A DNA stretch of 11,435 nt from Planctomycetota bacterium (lineage in GTDB: Bacteria > Planctomycetota > Planctomycetia > Isosphaerales > Isosphaeraceae). The stretch is from contig JAKBCQ010000025.1 in NCBI GenBank assembly GCA_021807585.1, forward strand, positions 1 to 11,435. Reading direction: 5' to 3'. The notes beneath the pieces were generated by a model. It worked only from the letters and a program-made list of their open reading frames with translations. It ran no database searches and had not been told where the DNA came from. The position numbers and the translations under genes are program-made. Shown here piece by piece: positions 2-11,435 of the stretch. Numbering within the stretch: position 1 is the stretch's first letter; the number at the start of each line of letters is the position of its first letter.

Positions 2-676
2 GCCAGACGCATCGCCGAACTCGAACGCAGGCTCCAATTCACCGTGCAACACGATCCCGAAGGATATGGTCACGCGGTTTGGACCGCGCAAAAGTTTGTA
101 GCGGGCGAGCCGTTTCTGCTCCTGCTGAGCGATCACCTCTATATCTCGAAACTCGCCGATCGCTGCGCCCAGCAGTTGATCAAGCTTGCAATGGCGGAGG
201 CGTGCTCGGTTTCCGCGGTGCAGGCGACGCGTGAGCATCTTGTACACCAATACGGCACGCTGACGGGTCGCAGGCTCGACGATCGAGCCGACGTTTTCGT
301 GATCGACGAGATCGTCGAGAAGCCGAATCCGACGCTCGCCGAGCTTAAGCTGCAAACGCCGGGGGTTCGATCGGGGCATTACCTTTGTTTTTTCGGCATG
401 CACGTTCTCACGGCGTCGATCTTCGATTTTCTTGGCGAGATGATCGCCCGCGACGAACGCGAGGGGGGACAAATTCAGCTCACCCCGGCGCTCCGCGCGC
501 TCGCCCGCAGCGAGCGCCATCTCGCGTTGGAAACCCAGGGAACGCGGCACAATCTCGGCGTCAAATACGGCTTCGTCGAGGCTCAAATCGCGCTCGCTCT
601 CGCGGGGATTGATCGCGAACAAATGCTCACTACTTTGCTCGAATCGGTCATTCGCATTGAACAATCACAATCATGA
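2..676 (+). CDS. GalU-like sugar-1-phosphate nucleotidyltransferase, 5'-truncated by window edge
   Basis: Predicted cytoplasmic enzyme joining a nucleoside triphosphate and a sugar-1-phosphate to give an NDP-sugar, most likely UTP plus glucose-1-phosphate to UDP-glucose. The reading frame is open from position 2, so the gene starts upstream; the GTG at 44 is internal. The visible 224 residues contain a Q-H-D-P-E-G-Y-G-H-A stretch (16-25), matching the nucleotide/sugar-binding segment of GalU-type enzymes, then a hydrophobic strand ending in S-D-H (43-45) where the family has its metal-binding Asp. A V-E-K-P motif (105-108) follows, and a C-terminal G-x-R-x-N-L-G-x-K-Y-G-F segment resembles the GalU 'G-R-x-D-x-G...G-[YF]' region. 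The N-terminal G-x-G-T-R loop lies outside the window. A second, unrelated pyrophosphorylase follows 88 bp downstream, which suggests a shared UDP-sugar pathway. A glucose-1-phosphate thymidylyltransferase is the main alternative. The family call is firm; the substrate is inferred. Confidence 0.85.
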   Translation, partial: ARRIAELERRLQFTVQHDPEGYGHAVWTAQKFVAGEPFLLLLSDHLYISKLADRCAQQLIKLAMAEACSVSAVQATREHLVHQYGTLTGRRLDDRADVFVIDEIVEKPNPTLAELKLQTPGVRSGHYLCFFGMHVLTASIFDFLGEMIARDEREGGQIQLTPALRALARSERHLALETQGTRHNLGVKYGFVEAQIALALAGIDREQMLTTLLESVIRIEQSQS

Positions 677-764: not shown

Positions 765-3700
765 GTGACGGTCGAGGCGCGAATTCGGTCGCTGTTGGAA
801 ACGATCGAGAGCGACGATCCGGCGATTCGCGATCGCTCGCTTTCCGAGCTTTTAATCGGCATGTCGACCTCCGATTTGCTCGCGGCGTGCAAAGAGCTCG
901 AGCGTTTCCGCAGGCGGTCCGAGAACCTTTATGAACGCGTGCGAGCGTCGATGTTTTTGCATGCGATCTATCAATATCACATTCAAGAGAGCCCCGAGAT
1001 TCCCGCGTCGGGTTATGTTCCGTATGACGGATTTGAGGATCTGCTCGACCGTCGGTTTGAGCGAGCGATCGCTTTGTTTTTAAGGGCTTTCGACGAACAG
1101 GGGCCGAACGGGACGGTCGCGAGTGCGCTTGCGCAGGCATATGAACAAATCACTTATCAAACACTTGCGGATCAGGTGCGGCGATCGGTGCGGAGCTGTT
1201 CGGGGAATCGCTGGATGTTCCGCGTCGGCGGGGTCGACGAACAGCCGCTCCGGCTGGTTCCGGCGTTGCTCGACCGCGCATCGGCCGACGCACTCTTTCC
1301 GATCCTGATTGAGCGAACGCCCGTAAGGCTCGATCTTTCGCATTCGGCCTGGTCCGACATCTTCTTTTTGGGGATGGATTATCCAGAACGGGCGCTGGTT
1401 CTGAACATATCGGTTGATCTTGGCGTGCACGGTCGCGACGCCGCGCCCGTCCCGCCGATCTCGGTTTATGTGCGCGTGCTCGCCGAGCCGATCCTTCGGT
1501 TGACGAGCCTCGATCTCAACGCGTGCAAAGACGTCGATTCGCTTGAAGAGCTGTTCAATTTTGGCAATGATTATCTAGGGTTGGTGAAGGCGGGGGTTAT
1601 CGCGTCGGGGCTCGTCCCCCCTTCGCTCGAGGGGACGGGGACGGCGCTCGCCGACGTTTTGGCGCGGGTCGTCCGTCCCGGCCACGGGCTCGAGGTGACG
1701 ACCGCGGTCAACGATATCCCCAAAGGTTCCCGGCTTGCGGTATCAACAAATCTGCTTGCGTCGATTATTTCGGCGTTGATGCGCGCGACGGGTCAAGCGC
1801 GGCGGTTGACGGGGACGCTCGAGCCCGACGAGGCTCGCGTCGTGGTGGCGCGTGCGATCCTCGGCGAATGGCTCGGCGGGTCGGGAGGGGGCTGGCAGGA
1901 TTCGGGAGGCGTTTTTCCGGGCGTGAAAATCATCGAGGGAGTTCCCTCCGGGCCGACCGACCCCGAACACGGGATTAGCCGCGGACGTCTGCTGCCGAGC
2001 CATCAATTGCTTGACCAAGTTGCTCATGCTTATCCTCATACAAGCAATAAGAATGATATGGATTTGAGCGGGAGATCGCCGCTCGCCGACGATCGGTCGG
2101 AGTCGTTCGCCCGAACGCTCGCGGAAAGCCTTGTGTTGGTGCACGGGGGGATGGCGCAGAACGTCGGCCCGATTCTCAATATGGTGACGCAAAAATATCT
2201 TTTGAGAAGCGGACCCGAATGGGAGGGGAGGCGCGACGCGGGGCGGATTTTCGAGCGGATCGTTCACGCGGTTCAAACCGGAGACGTCGCGGCGCTCGGC
2301 GGGTTGACGACCGCGAATTGGGAAGGCCCGCTTAAAGGCATTATTCCGTGGGTGAGTAATCATTTCACCGAGACGATCATCGCCCAGGCTCGGGCGACGC
2401 TCGAAGAGGATTTTTGGGGCTTTTTGATGCTGGGAGGGATGTCGGGAGGGGGAATGGCGTTTTTCACAGCGCCCCACAGGCGCGATGAATTCCGCCGCGA
2501 AATCGCCGCGATCATGCGGAACGCCAAGGCGTCTCTTGAAGAGGCGTTGCCGTTCGCGATGGAGCCCGTCGTTTATGATTTCAGGATCAACCCGCTCGGC
2601 ACTCACGCCGAGTTGATTACCGATGCGCGTGCGATGATGCCCGCGAAATACTACACGTTGCAGGTTCCTCGGATGATCGAACAAGGAGCGCGCGAGACCG
2701 CGGCGTCACGGCGGGCCGACGTCGATCATTTTTCGAATCATTGCGGCGATCCCGCCGATTTGATCCGGGTGTTCCGTGCAATGATTAACAATCTTTTTCC
2801 TGTCCCTCGATCCGCGGTCGATCGGTCGCGTGCCGGATGGGACGAAACCGCCGAGATGATCTTGAGGGCGAACGGGTTCGACGCGACCGAGCACGAACGG
2901 TTGCGCGAGGATCTGATCAGGGGCCGGATCGGGCTCGCGCGTAATCGCCTTCCCGTCGATACCGATATCCGCGACGTCGACGATCGCGAACTCGTTACCG
3001 CGAGAGGACGCATTCCCGCGACGACTGTCGAGCTCGGTCGCCGCGCGATCGAAGCCGGCGAGGTCGCGGTCGTCTCGCTCGCCGCGGGAGTCGGCAGCCG
3101 CTGGACGACGGGAGCGGGAGTCGTCAAGGCGATCAACCCGTTCGTCATGATCGACGGCCGTCATCGCGCGTTCCTTGAGATCCACTTCGCCAAAACGAAA
3201 CGATCTCAAAAAATCCATCATGTTCGAATCCCGCATATCGTGACGACGAGCTATCTCACGCACTCGGCGATCGAACGTCGGCTCGAGAAAACGGGGGATT
3301 TCGGCCACGACGGCCCGGTGTTTCTCTCGCCCGGGCGATCGATCGGCAAGCGTCTCGTTCCGATGACTCGTGATCTCACCTTTTTATGGGAAGAGACGAG
3401 TCACGAGACGCTCGACGAGAACAAGCAAAAAGTTCGCGCCGCGGGCCGGCGTGCGATCCTCGATTGGGCGCGGGGGACCGGCGAGGGGAGCGATTACACC
3501 GACAACACGCCGATCCAACGCTTCAACCCGCCGGGACATTTTCATGAAATTCCCAATCTTCTCAAAAACGGCGTGCTCGCCCGCGTCCTAACCGAATTTC
3601 CCAAGCTGAAATATTTGCTTGTTCATAATATTGATACGTTGGGGGCTTCGATCGATCCGGGAGTGTTGGGGCGCGCGATCGAATCGGGGGCGAGCGTTTC

Positions 3701-4190
3701 GTTCGAGGTGATTCCCCGGCGGATCGAGGATCGAGGGGGCGGGTTGGCGAAGGTGAACGGTCGCTTGAGGCTGCTCGAGGGGCTGGCGCAGCCGCGCGAG
3801 GAGACGGAATTTCGCCTTCGATATTACAACACCCTGACGACGTGGGTCGAGATCGACGGCCTGCTCAGAGCGTTCGGACTCACCCGCGACGACCCCGGCA
3901 AAGATCCCGCCAAGGTCGCCGCGGCGGTGCGCGAAGTCGCGTCGCGAGTTCCAACATATGTAACGATCAAGGATGTGAAGCGTCGATGGGGGCACGGCCA
4001 GGAGGACGTTTTCCCCGCGGCGCAGTTTGAAAAATTGTGGGGCGACGTCACGTCGCTTCCCGATCTTTCGTGTTCGTTCCTCGTCGTCGATCGCGGCCGA
4101 GGCCGCCAGCTCAAGGACACGGCGCAGCTCGACGGCTGGGCGAACGACGGCGGCCTTGAATACGTGAAATCACTTTGCGATTTTCATTAA
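765..4190 (+). CDS. fused GHMP (fucokinase-like) kinase / UDPGP-family nucleotide-sugar pyrophosphorylase
   Basis: Predicted cytoplasmic 1141-residue enzyme for sugar salvage: a kinase half would make a sugar-1-phosphate and a pyrophosphorylase half would convert it to a UDP-sugar. Residues 1-180 are helical and unrecognised. Residues about 181-600 look like the fucokinase branch of GHMP kinases: R-L-D-L...W-S-D (188-198) for the usual G-G-W-T-D-T motif; I-P-K-G-S-R-L-A-V-S-T (318-328) for the ATP loop; G-G-G-W-Q-D (374-379) with the catalytic-type Asp; and L-G-G-M-S-G-G-G-M (556-564) as the C-terminal glycine motif. Residues about 750-1110 resemble UGPase/USP: L-A-A-G-V-G-S-R-W (772-780), Lys788, P-P-G-H (922-925), V-H-N-I-D (953-957) and N-T-L-T (1022-1025). 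The ATP loop has lost two family glycines (Arg323, Ala325), so kinase activity is uncertain. GDP-fucose-type enzymes (FKP) place the domains in the reverse order. The GTG start is fixed by AAAGGAGG. The sugar substrate is unknown. Confidence 0.85.
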   Translation: MTVEARIRSLLETIESDDPAIRDRSLSELLIGMSTSDLLAACKELERFRRRSENLYERVRASMFLHAIYQYHIQESPEIPASGYVPYDGFEDLLDRRFERAIALFLRAFDEQGPNGTVASALAQAYEQITYQTLADQVRRSVRSCSGNRWMFRVGGVDEQPLRLVPALLDRASADALFPILIERTPVRLDLSHSAWSDIFFLGMDYPERALVLNISVDLGVHGRDAAPVPPISVYVRVLAEPILRLTSLDLNACKDVDSLEELFNFGNDYLGLVKAGVIASGLVPPSLEGTGTALADVLARVVRPGHGLEVTTAVNDIPKGSRLAVSTNLLASIISALMRATGQARRLTGTLEPDEARVVVARAILGEWLGGSGGGWQDSGGVFPGVKIIEGVPSGPTDPEHGISRGRLLPSHQLLDQVAHAYPHTSNKNDMDLSGRSPLADDRSESFARTLAESLVLVHGGMAQNVGPILNMVTQKYLLRSGPEWEGRRDAGRIFERIVHAVQTGDVAALGGLTTANWEGPLKGIIPWVSNHFTETIIAQARATLEEDFWGFLMLGGMSGGGMAFFTAPHRRDEFRREIAAIMRNAKASLEEALPFAMEPVVYDFRINPLGTHAELITDARAMMPAKYYTLQVPRMIEQGARETAASRRADVDHFSNHCGDPADLIRVFRAMINNLFPVPRSAVDRSRAGWDETAEMILRANGFDATEHERLREDLIRGRIGLARNRLPVDTDIRDVDDRELVTARGRIPATTVELGRRAIEAGEVAVVSLAAGVGSRWTTGAGVVKAINPFVMIDGRHRAFLEIHFAKTKRSQKIHHVRIPHIVTTSYLTHSAIERRLEKTGDFGHDGPVFLSPGRSIGKRLVPMTRDLTFLWEETSHETLDENKQKVRAAGRRAILDWARGTGEGSDYTDNTPIQRFNPPGHFHEIPNLLKNGVLARVLTEFPKLKYLLVHNIDTLGASIDPGVLGRAIESGASVSFEVIPRRIEDRGGGLAKVNGRLRLLEGLAQPREETEFRLRYYNTLTTWVEIDGLLRAFGLTRDDPGKDPAKVAAAVREVASRVPTYVTIKDVKRRWGHGQEDVFPAAQFEKLWGDVTSLPDLSCSFLVVDRGRGRQLKDTAQLDGWANDGGLEYVKSLCDFH

Positions 4191-4264: not shown

Positions 4265-5239
4265 ATGACACAATCGGCGAATGCAGTGGATCTTCGTGGG
4301 AGTCGCGTTCTGGTGACGGGGGGTGCGGGATTCATCGGGTCGCACCTGGTCGATGCGCTCGTGAGCGCGGGGGCTCTGGTGCGGGTCGTCGACGATTTAT
4401 CGACGGGAAAGATCGAGAATTTGGCCGATTCTTGGGATCGGATCGAGTTTATCGAGGGGAATCTGGCCGAATTTGGGGTGTGTCGGCGTGCGGTCGAGGG
4501 GATGGATTTTGTCTCGCATCAGGCGGCGATTCCGAGCGTGCCGCGGTCGATCGCCGAGCCGATTCCTTCAATGGCGAGCGGGCCGATCGCGACGTTGCAT
4601 TTGCTTGAGGCGAGTCGGCTCGCGAAGGTGAAGCGTTTCATTTACGCGGCTTCGAGCAGCGCTTACGGCGACGCGGCGATTCTTCCCAAGGAGGAGTCGT
4701 CGCCGCCCGCTCCGCTTAGTCCTTACGCGGCGGGTAAGATCGCGGGGGAATATTACGTATCGGTGTATGCAAAAACGATGGGGGTCGATGGAGCGAGCCT
4801 GCGGTATTTCAACGTGTTTGGTCCGAGGCAGGATCCTTCGAGCCCTTATAGCGGGGTAATCGCCCTCTGCGCGCGGCGGGCGGCGGAGGGACGAGCGGCG
4901 ACGATCCACGGCGACGGTTTACAAACGCGAGATTTTACATACATATCCAATGTTGTTTTGGCGAATCTTTTGGCGATGACGCGAGCCGAACCGCTCGGCG
5001 GGATCGTGCTCAACGTCGGCACGGGTCGCAGGATAAGTTTGCTCATGCTTGTCGATCGGCTCAACGCGCTGTTGGAGACGAATATCGAGCCCGTTCACCT
5101 TGAGCCGCGACCGGGCGACGTGCGCGATTCGCAGGCGAGTCTTGATCGGATTCGCGCCGAACTCGGCTACGAGCCGATCGTCGATTTTGAAGAGGGACTC
5201 GATCGATTGTTAAAGTCTCTTGCGCTTGGGAAAGCGTGA
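4265..5239 (+). CDS. NAD-dependent UDP-sugar epimerase of the extended SDR family (WbpP/GalE-like)
   Basis: Predicted 324-residue cytoplasmic enzyme that interconverts C4 epimers of a UDP-sugar (for example UDP-GlcNAc/UDP-GalNAc or UDP-Glc/UDP-Gal). The Rossmann motif T-G-G-A-G-F-I-G-S-H is at 18-27, the D-D-L-S-T-G segment after the second strand at 43-48, the catalytic Ser in A-A-S-S-S-A-Y-G (128-135) and the Y-x-x-x-K pair at Tyr154/Lys158. The R-Y-F-N-V-F-G-P-R-Q-D-P and G-D-G...R-D-F-T-Y-I stretches follow the WbpP subgroup more than classical GalE. The usual N-V-x-G-T motif before L-x-L-L-E-A is replaced by S-G-P-I-A-T (105-110), which is odd. It follows the pyrophosphorylase by 74 bp and is likely in the same operon. 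Only a weak GGAAA precedes the ATG. Uronate decarboxylase or 4,6-dehydratase activity is less likely given the motifs. Confidence 0.85.
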   Translation: MTQSANAVDLRGSRVLVTGGAGFIGSHLVDALVSAGALVRVVDDLSTGKIENLADSWDRIEFIEGNLAEFGVCRRAVEGMDFVSHQAAIPSVPRSIAEPIPSMASGPIATLHLLEASRLAKVKRFIYAASSSAYGDAAILPKEESSPPAPLSPYAAGKIAGEYYVSVYAKTMGVDGASLRYFNVFGPRQDPSSPYSGVIALCARRAAEGRAATIHGDGLQTRDFTYISNVVLANLLAMTRAEPLGGIVLNVGTGRRISLLMLVDRLNALLETNIEPVHLEPRPGDVRDSQASLDRIRAELGYEPIVDFEEGLDRLLKSLALGKA

Positions 5240-6518: not shown

Positions 6519-8774
6519 ATGAAAAATTTCTTTCGCCTCGTACGTTACGCCTGGCCGTATCGCGGCCGGTTCTGGTTATCCTTCGTGTGCGCGATGATGG
6601 TCGCGGCGATGTTCGGCGCGAATATCAGCGCCGTATTGCCGCTTTTGAAAATTCTCGTTCATCACGAGAATTGTCGGACGTGGATGGCCGATCAGGTCGC
6701 CGCGGTCGATCAACGGATCGCGGTCGCCGACGCACAAATTGAAGAAGACGTTTTCGTGGCGCAACTTGTGGAATCTCGCGGGATTAAAAACAAGACGCTC
6801 CAGAATCGTTATGAACGCGTTCGCGACGAATACCAGGGGCTCCGCACCGAGATCGAAGATATTGAACGCCGGATCGACATGCTTGGTATTGAGGATCCCA
6901 AGGAAAAGAAAGAGCTCGCCCGCGGCAAGCTTGACCTGAACACGAAGCGTCGCACGTTTGAGATCGCCGAGGCGCGTAAAAATGAGCTCAACCAGGCGCG
7001 CGATCGCGTGAAAGATCCCGCATATGCCGCCGCCAAGATGAAGCGACGCGTCGCGTCGCTCAAGGGGGAGCGTTCCGACGCGCTCTTTTGGAAACGATGT
7101 TACGCGTACGCGCAACCGCTCGTCGATCGATACCTGCCGACCGACGGTTTTCGCACCCTCAAGCTCCTCATGCTCCTTGTCGTTCTCGGAGTCGTCGTCA
7201 AGGGGATGTTCCAGTTCTTCCAGGAAGTCCTGGTAGCCGATATAATGCAGTTATGCCTGTTTGATATACGTAATCACTTCTTCAGGCGGACATTGGCGCT
7301 CGATCTTGCGAGTTTCAATCAGCAGGGTTCGGCCGAATTGATGGCGCGGTTCACGAACGATATGGACTCGCTTAGCCAGGGTCTCAACACGCTGCTTACC
7401 AAAGTGATTCGCGAACCTCTTCGAATCTTAAGCTGCTTATCGGTGGCGCTTTGGCTCAACTGGCGGCTCACGCTCCTGGCGCTCATTCTCGTTCCGCTTT
7501 CGACGATCACGACGGTGCGTGCCGGCAAAATCATGAAGCGCGCGGTGCGTCGAGCGCTTGAAAGCATGTCGAATATTTATAAGATCTTGCAAGAATCGTT
7601 CCAGGGGATCAAGGTCGTCAAAGCGTATACGATGGAGCGGCGCGAGCGAATCCGCTTTTATCATGAAACTAAGAAGCTTTATAAGAAAAGCGTGCGGGTG
7701 GCGACGATCGACGCACTTTCGGATCCCGCTCTTGAGCTCTTATCGTTTTTGACGATCGTGATTGCGCTTTTATCGGGATCGTATCTGGTCCTCCGACATT
7801 CGATCTTTTTGGATCTGTGGTTGTTCCGGATTCAGCTCGCGTCGACCCCGCCCGAAATCGTTGATTTGTTGGGTTTGTACGCGATGCTCGCGGGGATTTC
7901 GGATCCGGTTCGCAAGCTCGCGAACGTACATTCGAGGATTCAGCGAGCCGCGGCGGCTTCGGACCGGATCTGCTCGTTAATGGATCGCGAGCCGACGGTG
8001 ATCGATCGACCCATGGCGCACCCCCTTCCCGCGCATCGGCAGGCGATCGAGTTTGAGAACGTGACGTTCGGCTACGACGAGCGCGAGCTTGTGATTCAGG
8101 GATTCAATCTCAGCGTTCGCCACGGCGAGACGATTGCGATCGTCGGGCCCAACGGATGCGGTAAATCGACGTTGATGAGCCTGCTGCCGCGATTTTGGGA
8201 CGTCAAATCGGGGTCGATCAAGATCGACGGACGCGACATTCGGGATATCAAGCTGCGTGAATTACGATCGAGGATCGGACTCGTCGCACAGGAAATCGTC
8301 CTCTTCGACGATACGATCGCCGCGAACATCGCCTACGGCAGTCCGGGGGCGGATCGCAAACAGATCGAGATCGCCGCGAAACGAGCATATGCGCATCAGT
8401 TTATTATGTCGTTTCCCGACGGTTATGAAACAAGGGTGGGCGATCGCGGCCAGGGGTTGTCGGGGGGGCAAAAGCAGCGGATTGCGCTGGCGCGAGCGAT
8501 GTTGCGAGACCCGGCGATTTTGATTCTCGACGAGGCGACTTCGGCGGTCGACATTAAGGATGAGGCGTTAATCCGCAAAGCGATCGAAGAGTTCGCACGC
8601 GGCCGCACGACGTTCCTGATCACGCACAGTTTGGCGACGCTTCAATTCGCCGATCGGATCGTATTGATGAATGCGGGGGCGGTCGAGGCGGTCGGCGCCG
8701 AGGACGAGCTGCGTCGAGGCTCACAGCTTTATCGGAGCCTGCACGATATCCATTATCAACGTGAAAGCGCGTGA
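6519..8774 (+). CDS. MsbA-type ABC exporter half-transporter with a large coiled-coil-like extracytoplasmic insertion
   Basis: Predicted 751-residue inner-membrane protein with fused membrane and ATPase domains, working as a homodimer or heterodimer to flip or export a lipid, glycolipid or peptide. TM1 lies at about 17-45 and TM2 at 211-236; between them are about 165 charged, helical residues with coiled-coil-like spacing, where MsbA has only a short loop. TM3/TM4 cover about 300-336 and TM5/TM6 about 405-462. The ATPase is complete: Walker A G-P-N-G-C-G-K-S-T (543-551), Q-loop Gln591, signature L-S-G-G-Q (647-651), Walker B I-L-I-L-D-E (667-672), D-loop S-A-V-D (675-678) and switch His703. 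An in-frame stop 12 bp upstream (6507-6509) fixes the ATG as the earliest start. No Shine-Dalgarno site precedes it closely. The sugar-nucleotide genes upstream hint at a glycan or glycolipid cargo, but the 1.28-kb gap weakens that link. Confidence 0.9.
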   Translation: MKNFFRLVRYAWPYRGRFWLSFVCAMMVAAMFGANISAVLPLLKILVHHENCRTWMADQVAAVDQRIAVADAQIEEDVFVAQLVESRGIKNKTLQNRYERVRDEYQGLRTEIEDIERRIDMLGIEDPKEKKELARGKLDLNTKRRTFEIAEARKNELNQARDRVKDPAYAAAKMKRRVASLKGERSDALFWKRCYAYAQPLVDRYLPTDGFRTLKLLMLLVVLGVVVKGMFQFFQEVLVADIMQLCLFDIRNHFFRRTLALDLASFNQQGSAELMARFTNDMDSLSQGLNTLLTKVIREPLRILSCLSVALWLNWRLTLLALILVPLSTITTVRAGKIMKRAVRRALESMSNIYKILQESFQGIKVVKAYTMERRERIRFYHETKKLYKKSVRVATIDALSDPALELLSFLTIVIALLSGSYLVLRHSIFLDLWLFRIQLASTPPEIVDLLGLYAMLAGISDPVRKLANVHSRIQRAAAASDRICSLMDREPTVIDRPMAHPLPAHRQAIEFENVTFGYDERELVIQGFNLSVRHGETIAIVGPNGCGKSTLMSLLPRFWDVKSGSIKIDGRDIRDIKLRELRSRIGLVAQEIVLFDDTIAANIAYGSPGADRKQIEIAAKRAYAHQFIMSFPDGYETRVGDRGQGLSGGQKQRIALARAMLRDPAILILDEATSAVDIKDEALIRKAIEEFARGRTTFLITHSLATLQFADRIVLMNAGAVEAVGAEDELRRGSQLYRSLHDIHYQRESA

Positions 8775-9046
8775 GACCGCCGAATAAATCGGTGAACCAT
8801 TATACGTTTTGATCGCGCATGACGGATCACGCCGATTTCGATCGAATCAGCCCGAACGAACGGGGGTTGATTCCCGAGCGATGTCGCGCCTTGCCGATTC
8901 GGCGAGATTGGCTCGAACGCGGTCGCGGCCCCTTCCCCGCGGCCGGCGATCGGAATTATACTAAGGACCGAGTCGGCCGGTGCGTTTTGTTATCGTCGCT
9001 TATTCGCCGCCGGACGACGTGAGTCGCTCATAGGAGTGTTTTGTCC
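8775..9046. other. 272-bp spacer upstream of the lipoprotein gene; weak hairpin and -10-like box
   Basis: No gene is supported here. Soon after the ABC stop, CGCCGA/TCGGTG (8778-8783 with 8789-8794) forms a 6-bp stem with one G-U; a short T-run (8807-8810) comes 12 nt later, making a poor terminator. GCCG-ATT-CGGC at 8893-8903 is a second small hairpin. TATACT (8957-8962) could be a -10 box for the lipoprotein gene but has no recognisable -35. Confidence 0.35.
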
Positions 9047-10126
9047 ATGTCTCGGCGCGTTTGTCGGATCGTACCTCGTTCCTTCCTGGCTTTGGCGTGG
9101 TTGATCGTCGTCGGTTGTAATTCGACTTCCGCGCCGCCTCCGTTACCTCCGGCGGACGAGATCGGGGGGAATCCCGCCACGTCGGCGTCGCTTTATCAAA
9201 CGCATCGTAAGTCGAGCGAGATCAACTTGATTCTCCCTGCTCAAGACACGCCTGATTATCGCCTTTGGGAGCGGATCGTTCAGGTTGAAAGCGGCAAGAA
9301 GCACGTATCGTTCGTGGCCCAACGCCCGTCGCCCGGTGATCCCCCGACGGCGCAGGCCGATCTCGTACGCGAGTCCTCCAAACGCGGAGTGAAGGGAATC
9401 ATCGTGATACCCGACGAGCACGACGCCGAACTCGCGGAGGCGCTTGAAGAAGTAAGGGATCGAGGGACGTCGGTTCTCACCCTCGATCATGTCGTGAAGG
9501 TCGAAGGCAAGCCGATCCCCGCAATCGCTCTGGAAGGGTATGAAAAAACATCGGAGAACCTCATCAAGGCGGCTCTTGAGGACGCCAAAGAGGCGGGTTT
9601 TCCGGCGAACGCACCCGGGATCTTGTTGATCCGCCGACCGGGTGACGCGCAATCGTCCGCTCGGCTGGCGGCGATCGAAGCCGCGATCAAAAAAGCGAAT
9701 GTCAATATTGTAGAGCGAGTCTATTTTAACGGATTAGCCGATGTCGCGATGATCGCCTTCGAGCCCGTGATCATGAAGCATCATGAAGCCGCGTTCGTCT
9801 TCGCCGATGAGGATCAAGGGACGAGCGTCATCGTCGACAAATTGACGGGATCGCTGGCGCTCGAAGACGATGATCCCACGAAGTTCAAATACAGCGCCGT
9901 CGGATTCATCATGCTTGATCGTTTCAAAAGCCTGATCGATCGCGGCATCGCATCGGCGATCGCCGATCGGCAAATCATCCACTCCGGTAAGCTCGCGGTG
10001 CGACTAATTATCGATCTCTCCGAGGGCAAAACGATCGCGGATAAAACGGTCGTCGAACCCGATCTGCTGCGTCGCACTCACAAGCCATCCGAACAGGAAA
10101 AGCAAATGATGAAACGACCTCATTAA
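9047..10126 (+). CDS. periplasmic sugar-binding-type (Peripla_BP_4, RbsB-like) lipoprotein
   Basis: Predicted exported lipoprotein of 359 residues with a type I periplasmic-binding fold, expected to bind a small ligand such as a sugar outside the cytoplasmic membrane. The N-terminus has Arg residues, a hydrophobic run and V-V-G-C with the lipobox Cys at residue 24, followed by a Ser/Pro-rich tether. The body starts with I-N-L-I-L-P-A, then strand/helix units including G-V-K-G-I-I-V-I-P-D, V-L-T-L-D-H and a C-terminal S-A-V-G-F-I-M-L...I-D-R-G-I-A-S-A-I-A-D-R segment resembling the 'G...Gi.A.iaQ' region of RbsB-type proteins. AGGAG at 9032-9036 is 10 nt before this ATG; an in-frame TTG at 9041 is an alternative start only 4 nt from it. 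No permease or ATPase neighbour is visible, so it may be an orphan receptor or use a transporter encoded elsewhere. Ligand unknown. Confidence 0.8.
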   Translation: MSRRVCRIVPRSFLALAWLIVVGCNSTSAPPPLPPADEIGGNPATSASLYQTHRKSSEINLILPAQDTPDYRLWERIVQVESGKKHVSFVAQRPSPGDPPTAQADLVRESSKRGVKGIIVIPDEHDAELAEALEEVRDRGTSVLTLDHVVKVEGKPIPAIALEGYEKTSENLIKAALEDAKEAGFPANAPGILLIRRPGDAQSSARLAAIEAAIKKANVNIVERVYFNGLADVAMIAFEPVIMKHHEAAFVFADEDQGTSVIVDKLTGSLALEDDDPTKFKYSAVGFIMLDRFKSLIDRGIASAIADRQIIHSGKLAVRLIIDLSEGKTIADKTVVEPDLLRRTHKPSEQEKQMMKRPH

Positions 10127-10283: not shown

Positions 10284-11435
10284 TCAGCCGATAACGTACG
10301 CGGCCCCCGCGGCGCGACGTCCTCGGACGCTCTCGGGAAACAGATCTTCTTGAGCAAGATCCAAGGCGGAGTTGAACGGGATCTCGATATAATCGGTTTG
10401 GCGCTTCAGGTGCGGATGCGCCGCGACCTCGGCGTCGAGAGCCTGTGAAACCCAAAGATCGTTCAATTCCAATGTGTTTGGAATAATGACCAATCGCGCC
10501 TCTGATGCGCTCATGCGCCAGCATGTTTCGATCGCGGTTTCAAACACGGCGCGGTCGTTCTCAAGCGTGATGGGGATGCGAGCTCGTTCCAGGAAGCAAG
10601 ACGTGAGGACGTTGACGCGAAACGGCTCGGGATCGAGCTTGGAGACGAGTTTTTCGGTCGTCAAATCGGCGAAGCCGACGCCGACGATGTTGCCGTGACT
10701 CTCGTCCGAGACATCGAGCACGCCCAACCGGGTGACGACGGGGCGATCGTAATCGCTCTGGGTCTCAACCATCAACCTGCCGATCACGTTGGGATCGAGT
10801 CCTGCTCCCGAATAATTCTTGCCGAGCTCGCCGACAATCAGCACGTCGATCCGATCGAAGGGCAAGCGACCGATCAACTCGCGGGCCTTATCGAGCAATG
10901 CGGGCTCGACATCGAGAACGTCTTCGGGCTCGAGCGCGACGATTTCTGCGGGATAATCCTCGGCGTTCTCAAGCACCGCGAGGCCGAGCGCGAACGGCGT
11001 TTTCTCGATCAGAATTTTGCCGACCGCGGGAAGAACCTCTTTCATCCCTCGGAGCCCAAGCTTATGGATCTGGCTTGCACCGTCGCGCTTGCCCAGGCCG
11101 ATGACGAGCATTTTCAGAACGCCCGATTCGTACTTGGAATGAAAATCGGTGTGCGGCTTAACGCGATTGAGTAGGACAATTCCGTCGGCGTTCCAAGCGT
11201 TCTTGTCGAAAAAAATCGGCAGGCCGACCGGACTTGTTCCGACCGTGACGACTTCCATATCGGTTAAAACGTCGACCCCCATCGTCTCGCGAGTCACTCC
11301 GTAACCCGCGAGAAGCTCGCGCTGGCCGTCGGCGGTCGCTCCGCCGTGGCTCCCCATCGCCGCGACAATGAACGGGCGAAAGCCCATCTCCTTGAGCGTA
11401 TCGACCGCGGCCCGCGCCAGGATCGGGATCGTTGT
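10284..11435 (-). CDS. lactate racemase (LarA) superfamily protein, 5'-truncated by window edge
   Basis: Predicted cytoplasmic enzyme of the LarA/DUF2088 superfamily, whose founder racemises lactate with a covalently bound nickel-pincer nucleotide; related members act on other 2-hydroxyacids. The frame is open to the window end, so the start is missing; 383 residues are visible (numbered from the edge). Candidate cofactor residues fit LarA in order and spacing: His30 in A-M-G-S-H-G-G-A-T, His95 in R-V-K-P-H-T, Lys108 in G-V-L-K-M and His124 in S-Q-I-H. The gaps of 65, 13 and 16 compare with 66, 10 and 16 for His108, His174, Lys184 and His200 of LarA. G-x-x-S/T-H-R-P of LarA is replaced by G-S-H-G-G-A-T, so the substrate probably differs. 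The end reads A-A-Y-V-I-G. No larB, larC or larE maturation genes are visible nearby. The ATG at 11387 is not the true start, since conserved sequence continues upstream of it. Confidence 0.85.
   Translation of the reverse strand, partial: TTIPILARAAVDTLKEMGFRPFIVAAMGSHGGATADGQRELLAGYGVTRETMGVDVLTDMEVVTVGTSPVGLPIFFDKNAWNADGIVLLNRVKPHTDFHSKYESGVLKMLVIGLGKRDGASQIHKLGLRGMKEVLPAVGKILIEKTPFALGLAVLENAEDYPAEIVALEPEDVLDVEPALLDKARELIGRLPFDRIDVLIVGELGKNYSGAGLDPNVIGRLMVETQSDYDRPVVTRLGVLDVSDESHGNIVGVGFADLTTEKLVSKLDPEPFRVNVLTSCFLERARIPITLENDRAVFETAIETCWRMSASEARLVIIPNTLELNDLWVSQALDAEVAAHPHLKRQTDYIEIPFNSALDLAQEDLFPESVRGRRAAGAAYVIG

Follow-up and report, generated by a model that had tools for sequence, protein, structure and literature searches.

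A kinase-UDPGP fusion protein whose variant ATP loop is fixed, and the GalU-like gene beside it

Does a sugar kinase whose ATP-binding loop carries Arg and Ala in place of two glycines still work as a kinase? The question is raised by an 11,435-nucleotide stretch of DNA from a Planctomycetota bacterium (contig JAKBCQ010000025.1; hereafter the window). In it an open reading frame at 765-4190 on the forward strand, with a GTG start 6 nucleotides 3′ of a Shine-Dalgarno-like AGGAGG (753-758, +), encodes a 1141-residue protein joining a fucokinase-like kinase to a UDPGP pyrophosphorylase. We defined this gene from the list of open reading frames, sequence matches in Pfam-A, NCBIfam, and PDB, a genome search, and a structure model. 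The fusion is apparently a widespread and uncharacterized bifunctional enzyme, one whose general kind is known, whose arrangement is new, and whose loop variant is fixed. We think it likely, judging from sequence, that it is an intact, active-looking salvage enzyme that would turn a free sugar, ATP, and UTP into a UDP-sugar.

Sequence searches of the PDB align residues 180-392 of the fusion with FKP (9iip, E 1.6e-9) and residues 914-1035 with UDP-glucose pyrophosphorylases (a profile version was run too). The NCBIfam model of FKP, PRK13412, matches residues 180-391 only (E 2.5e-17; 61.9 bits, below its cut-off of 721), and Pfam-A recognizes UDPGP (PF01704) in the C-terminal half (E 4.8e-14; 52.3 bits, above the curated cut-off of 22), with a sub-threshold YtxH match besides (18 bits against a cut-off of 37.5). 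The original prediction had described a fucokinase-type half followed by a UDPGP half, the reverse of the order in FKP, and these matches agree with it. The structure model (predicted local distance difference test, 89.0; predicted template modeling score, 0.88) resembles the kinase half of FKP together with the UGP and UAP pyrophosphorylases; its kinase half has the GHMP fold, and the combination of FKP-like linker helices with that fold is likewise present. The protein can be divided into a helical N-terminal domain, partly alignable to the FKP linker region (residues 1-179; 765-1301, +), a fucokinase-like GHMP kinase domain (residues 180-618; 1302-2618, +), and a UDPGP pyrophosphorylase domain assigned from the PF01704 and PDB matches (residues 685-1141; 2817-4187, +).

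Counting along the alignment to FKP, with FKP numbering taken from PMC11982464, we mapped 11 residues tied to sugar, phosphate, metal, or catalysis; Ala900, also named there, falls outside the alignment and was left out. Eight are identical in the fusion (Arg592 = Arg188, Trp599 = Trp196, Asp601 = Asp198, Ser719 = Ser327, Glu751 = Glu368, Gly759 = Gly376, Gln761 = Gln378, and Asp762 = Asp379), one is conservatively replaced, and two differ (Ser720 = Thr328, Thr602 = Ile199, and Gly717 = Ala325). According to that paper, fucose is bound by Trp599 and Asp601 of FKP, W599A and D601A lower kcat/Km for fucose more than 3000-fold, and E751A and D762A are inactive (PMC11982464). We compared 238 distinct sequences, roughly half of which are close relatives, drawn from the window, the loci, and the listed proteins. 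Glu368, Gly376, Gln378, and Asp379 occur in 238 of 238, and His193, Trp196, and Asp198 in 236, with gaps in the other two; the counterparts of FKP Arg592, Asp601, Ser719, Glu751, and Asp762 stand in every aligned sequence covering them, and none of the mapped active-site and adenine-pocket residues of the window protein varies where it is covered. Motif 1, the putative sugar-binding H-S-A-W-S-D (residues 193-198; 1341-1358, +), reads SHSAW where FKP has AGGW, the extra residue being aligned at His193. The segment from Glu368 to the putative base Asp379 (1866-1901, +) ends in G-G-G-W-Q-D, and motif 3, G557-GMSGGG-M564, lies at 2433-2456 (+). Since these active-site positions are kept, the kinase domain has the look of a functional sugar-1-kinase that uses ATP and whose pocket resembles that of fucokinase.

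Motif 2 of GHMP kinases is P-x3-G-L-x-S-S. The fusion has P319-K-G-S-R-L-A-V-S-T328 (1719-1748, +) opposite IPAGSGLGTSS of FKP (5yys, 9iip), with Arg323 at FKP Gly715 and Ala325 at Gly717, and the Gly that the motif requires before Leu is Arg in all 237 sequences that have a residue at this position. The original prediction had quoted all of these motifs at the right places, including W196-S-D198, and had correctly reported the two replaced glycines and SHSAW for G-G-W; where it went astray was in calling the loop eroded. Gly321, Ser322, Arg323, Ala325, Val326, Ser327, and Thr328 each occur in 237 of 238 sequences, with one gap, Lys320 in 236 (one Arg, one gap), and Leu324 is replaced by Phe in 23; Arg323, Ala325, Val326, Ser327, and Thr328 are also invariant in a more even set of 67 sequences, 44-73% identical to the window protein. 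Because it hardly varies across the distant relatives compared, the loop is, as far as the alignments go, a fixed family feature and not decay, and a pseudogene or recent decay of the fusion was rejected because the frame is intact and the loop unchanged in those relatives. Six FKP-type kinases from the same searches (L128, L129, L135, L136, L146, and L147), a small control, read (I/V/L)P(K/A)GSGLGTSS, so the Arg, Ala, Val, and Thr changes mark the fusion family.

A loop of this kind might instead serve another phosphate donor (pyrophosphate, polyphosphate, or a different nucleoside triphosphate), Lys320 and Arg323 acting as extra phosphate contacts, and the near-universal presence of two basic residues would suit that idea; yet Lys at the position of 320 is also found in five of the six FKP-type kinases with the ordinary loop, and the adenine neighbors of FKP, Asp644, Met645, Ile669, and Leu722, which were modeled in PMC11982464, correspond to Asp250, Leu251, Leu273, and Leu330 of the fusion, invariant where covered. 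Because these modeled positions have counterparts without variation, a changed donor is not indicated, and we regard it as unlikely. The original proposal of a new salvage enzyme with a changed donor therefore keeps its first part, as probable UDP-sugar salvage, and loses its second.

The C-terminal domain carries GVGSRW (775-780), Lys788, HNID (954-957), LLE (1003-1005), and Lys1069; Arg779, Lys788, and Asp957 are conserved in the fusion family. From these motifs we infer putative uridylyl transfer to a sugar-1-phosphate. Several observations weigh against the reading as an active salvage enzyme. His-Gly-Asp of UGP is His-Phe-His in the window protein and mostly His-Phe/Trp-Tyr across the family, and FNTNNIW is YNTLTTW in the PDB alignment, so the acceptor may not be glucose 1-phosphate; with Ile199 in place of FKP Thr602, the residue that contacts the C3 hydroxyl, fucose may not be the sugar. 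The Arg that precedes the loop Leu occurs in none of the six FKP-type kinases compared and could reduce ATP binding. Pfam-A finds no GHMP domain in the protein at E ≤ 1, and no characterized homologue turned up in structure, family, and open-licence literature searches. Nor did we recognize a description of a kinase-UDPGP fusion in the open-licence literature, covered mostly at the level of titles and abstracts.

The fusion is no chance product, since it is full length in many genomes of the same taxonomic family and in genomes titled as many phyla. Among 37 same-family genomes (the window's own included), 24 hold one full-length, stop-free match, nine a partial or split one, and four none; overall 35 of 59 genomes, again with the window's own, have a match, and outside the family the whole protein occurs only in G047, with a weak UDPGP-only match in G045. 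A sample of the phylum gave matches at E ≤ 0.001 in 43 of 392 genomes, many of them single-domain relatives only, and among 296 genomes of the phylum to which a Spirosoma genome (G437) belongs, eight matched, seven of them (with G437) at full length and one through an FKP-type kinase. A scan of species genomes found at least 585 relatives, and 80 of these were retained, under titles that name Planctomycetota, Hydrogenedentota, Bacteroidota, Verrucomicrobiota, Chloroflexota, Armatimonadota, Lentisphaerae, and others, labels that can be wrong for metagenome-assembled genomes. In a protein search, the 7999 candidates sharing most words were scored and 7997 passed; the best 120 of the 7997 are all 1110-1174 residues long, and all have PF01704. 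The family is large and patchily spread. Record names among the listed proteins are mostly "UTP--glucose-1-phosphate uridylyltransferase," "predicted kinase," or hypothetical, and a single JGI record, P0066, names both halves; names giving one activity are probably incomplete.

We believe that the gene just upstream deserves more attention than the loop. At 2-676 (+) the window encodes 224 residues of a GalU-like nucleotidyltransferase, its 5′ end cut by the contig start, which matches TIGR01099 (galU) with E 1.5e-26 and 93.5 bits, below the cut-off of 326.8; the whole copy in a same-genus relative (L002) reaches 153.2 bits, also below it. Of 140 loci, 120 have such a gene upstream of the fusion in the same orientation, 13 lack room for it, and in seven it was not found; a first picking of open reading frames had given 60 of 75 by missing partners under longer antisense frames, and 120 of 140 is the corrected count. 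A recognizable partner is absent despite room at L110, L093, L121, L123, L124, and L127. One galU-model match above 90 bits, and no second, is present in 28 of the 37 same-family genomes; in 27 it shares a contig with a fusion match, and in G029 it sits on a different one. We rejected the idea that the partner generally takes the place of GalU: a true GalU above the cut-off is also encoded in six of 16 further genomes (the 16 include two of the same family), and in five other-family genomes galU-model matches of 244-287 bits are likewise all below that cut-off, among the matches listed.

Of 102 distinct partners that could be classified, 57 retain the nucleotide loop, G-x-G-x-R ... K-x-M-L-P, and 45 lack its Lys part, so those 45, which all fall on the same side of the tree of the fusion, should not catalyze; the window's own copy starts beyond this region because its contig does. 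The short-loop partners stay conserved and are predicted to be well folded (for example, L150:11003-11869). The nucleotide loop thus seems lost in part of the family; the eroded member of the gene pair, if there is one, is the GalU-like protein, which suggests a regulatory subunit like GalF or GMPPA. The neighbor is a co-inherited partner of the fusion, probably a subunit or regulator.

Besides these two genes no neighbor cluster spans more than six of 75 loci; a wider operon was rejected on that ground, and the neighborhood therefore does not name the sugar. An NAD-dependent sugar epimerase-like gene occupies 4265-5239 (+), 74 nucleotides downstream of the fusion. Together with the GalU-like gene it invites a GalT-free galactose route, in which the fusion would make UDP-galactose, an epimerase such as this one would convert it to UDP-glucose, and the GalU-like protein would return glucose 1-phosphate; this we find about as doubtful as a changed donor, with the epimerase cluster drawn from only five of 75 loci (flanks of unequal length) and catalysis not expected of the short-loop partners. 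Farther downstream lie an MsbA-like exporter of the ATP-binding cassette type (6519-8774, +; 751 residues), whose transporter-family matches start near residue 160-260 after a long N-terminal extra part, a periplasmic-binding-type protein (9041-10126, +; PF13407) with a Cys-containing, lipoprotein-like start and no matching import genes seen in the window, and a nickel-pincer-dependent isomerase of NCBIfam group 22 (10284-11435, −; 449.8 bits against a cut-off of 400), truncated where the contig ends. Promoter and terminator scans gave counts near the shuffled expectation, and scans for Rfam families and tRNAs gave no match.

Slightly less probable again is a catalytically dead kinase domain that senses a sugar or sugar phosphate and controls the pyrophosphorylase, as the original prediction had also offered: two loop glycines are replaced, one of them (FKP Gly717) contacting phosphate through its backbone NH (PMC11982464), but no variation is seen in Glu368, Arg188, Ser327, the putative base Asp379, or the sugar-pocket positions Trp196, Asp198, and Gln378, a sensor need not retain base and metal ligand, and the loss of base, Glu, or metal ligand to be expected in some lineage is not seen among the aligned sequences.

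As a bifunctional salvage enzyme, the fusion would use ATP to phosphorylate a free sugar at C1 in its fucokinase-like domain, with Asp379 as base, Ser327 and Thr328 at the metal, and Arg188 at the transferred phosphate; Arg323 and Ala325 are fixed changes to the ATP loop that may add a side-chain contact to the phosphates. The UDPGP domain would then combine the sugar-1-phosphate with UTP, yielding UDP-sugar and pyrophosphate, beside a partner that retains its nucleotide loop in half of the family and lacks the Lys part of it in the other half. More tentatively, and with the odds against it, the two proteins may assemble into a hetero-complex of a kind new to UDP-sugar metabolism. A partner of GalU fold, which in one of the two halves of the family would have turned into a pseudo-pyrophosphorylase that only senses UDP-sugars or nucleotides, would control the fusion, and the kinase would act by way of a new type of ATP loop containing Arg.

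Among known systems the closest likeness is to FKP, the L-fucokinase/GDP-fucose pyrophosphorylase of Bacteroides fragilis (5yys, 9iip, 9iit), which shares the linker helices and the GHMP kinase fold. Its pyrophosphorylase is N-terminal and contains a beta-helix, whereas that of the fusion is C-terminal and of the UDPGP family, behind a helical N-terminus; its loop is GSGLGTSS, against GSRLAVST, and it has Thr602 where the fusion has Ile199. Within the UDPGP family (UGP, UAP; PF01704) the fusion's version stands out by sitting behind a kinase and by its altered HGD and NTNNIW motifs. The zebrafish glucuronokinase/putative pyrophosphorylase likewise joins a GHMP sugar-1-kinase to a nucleotidyltransferase for UDP-sugar salvage but has the pyrophosphorylase domain N-terminal and like the short bacterial enzymes, unlike the fusion (PMC3938481). 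The fusion offers a natural way to ask whether Arg in the loop is compatible with a working GHMP kinase, and the gene pair a way to ask how a pyrophosphorylase might be controlled by a pseudo-pyrophosphorylase of a different family. In GalU/GalF a catalytic pyrophosphorylase is accompanied by a related protein that is inactive or weak. The same relation holds for GMPPA-GMPPB, GMPPA being catalytically inactive and assembling with GMPPB (PMC9168903). Unlike either pair, the present one would set a possible regulator of the GalU fold beside an enzyme of the UDPGP family; with GMPPA-GMPPB as precedent, the fusion may be regulated by an inactive homologue.
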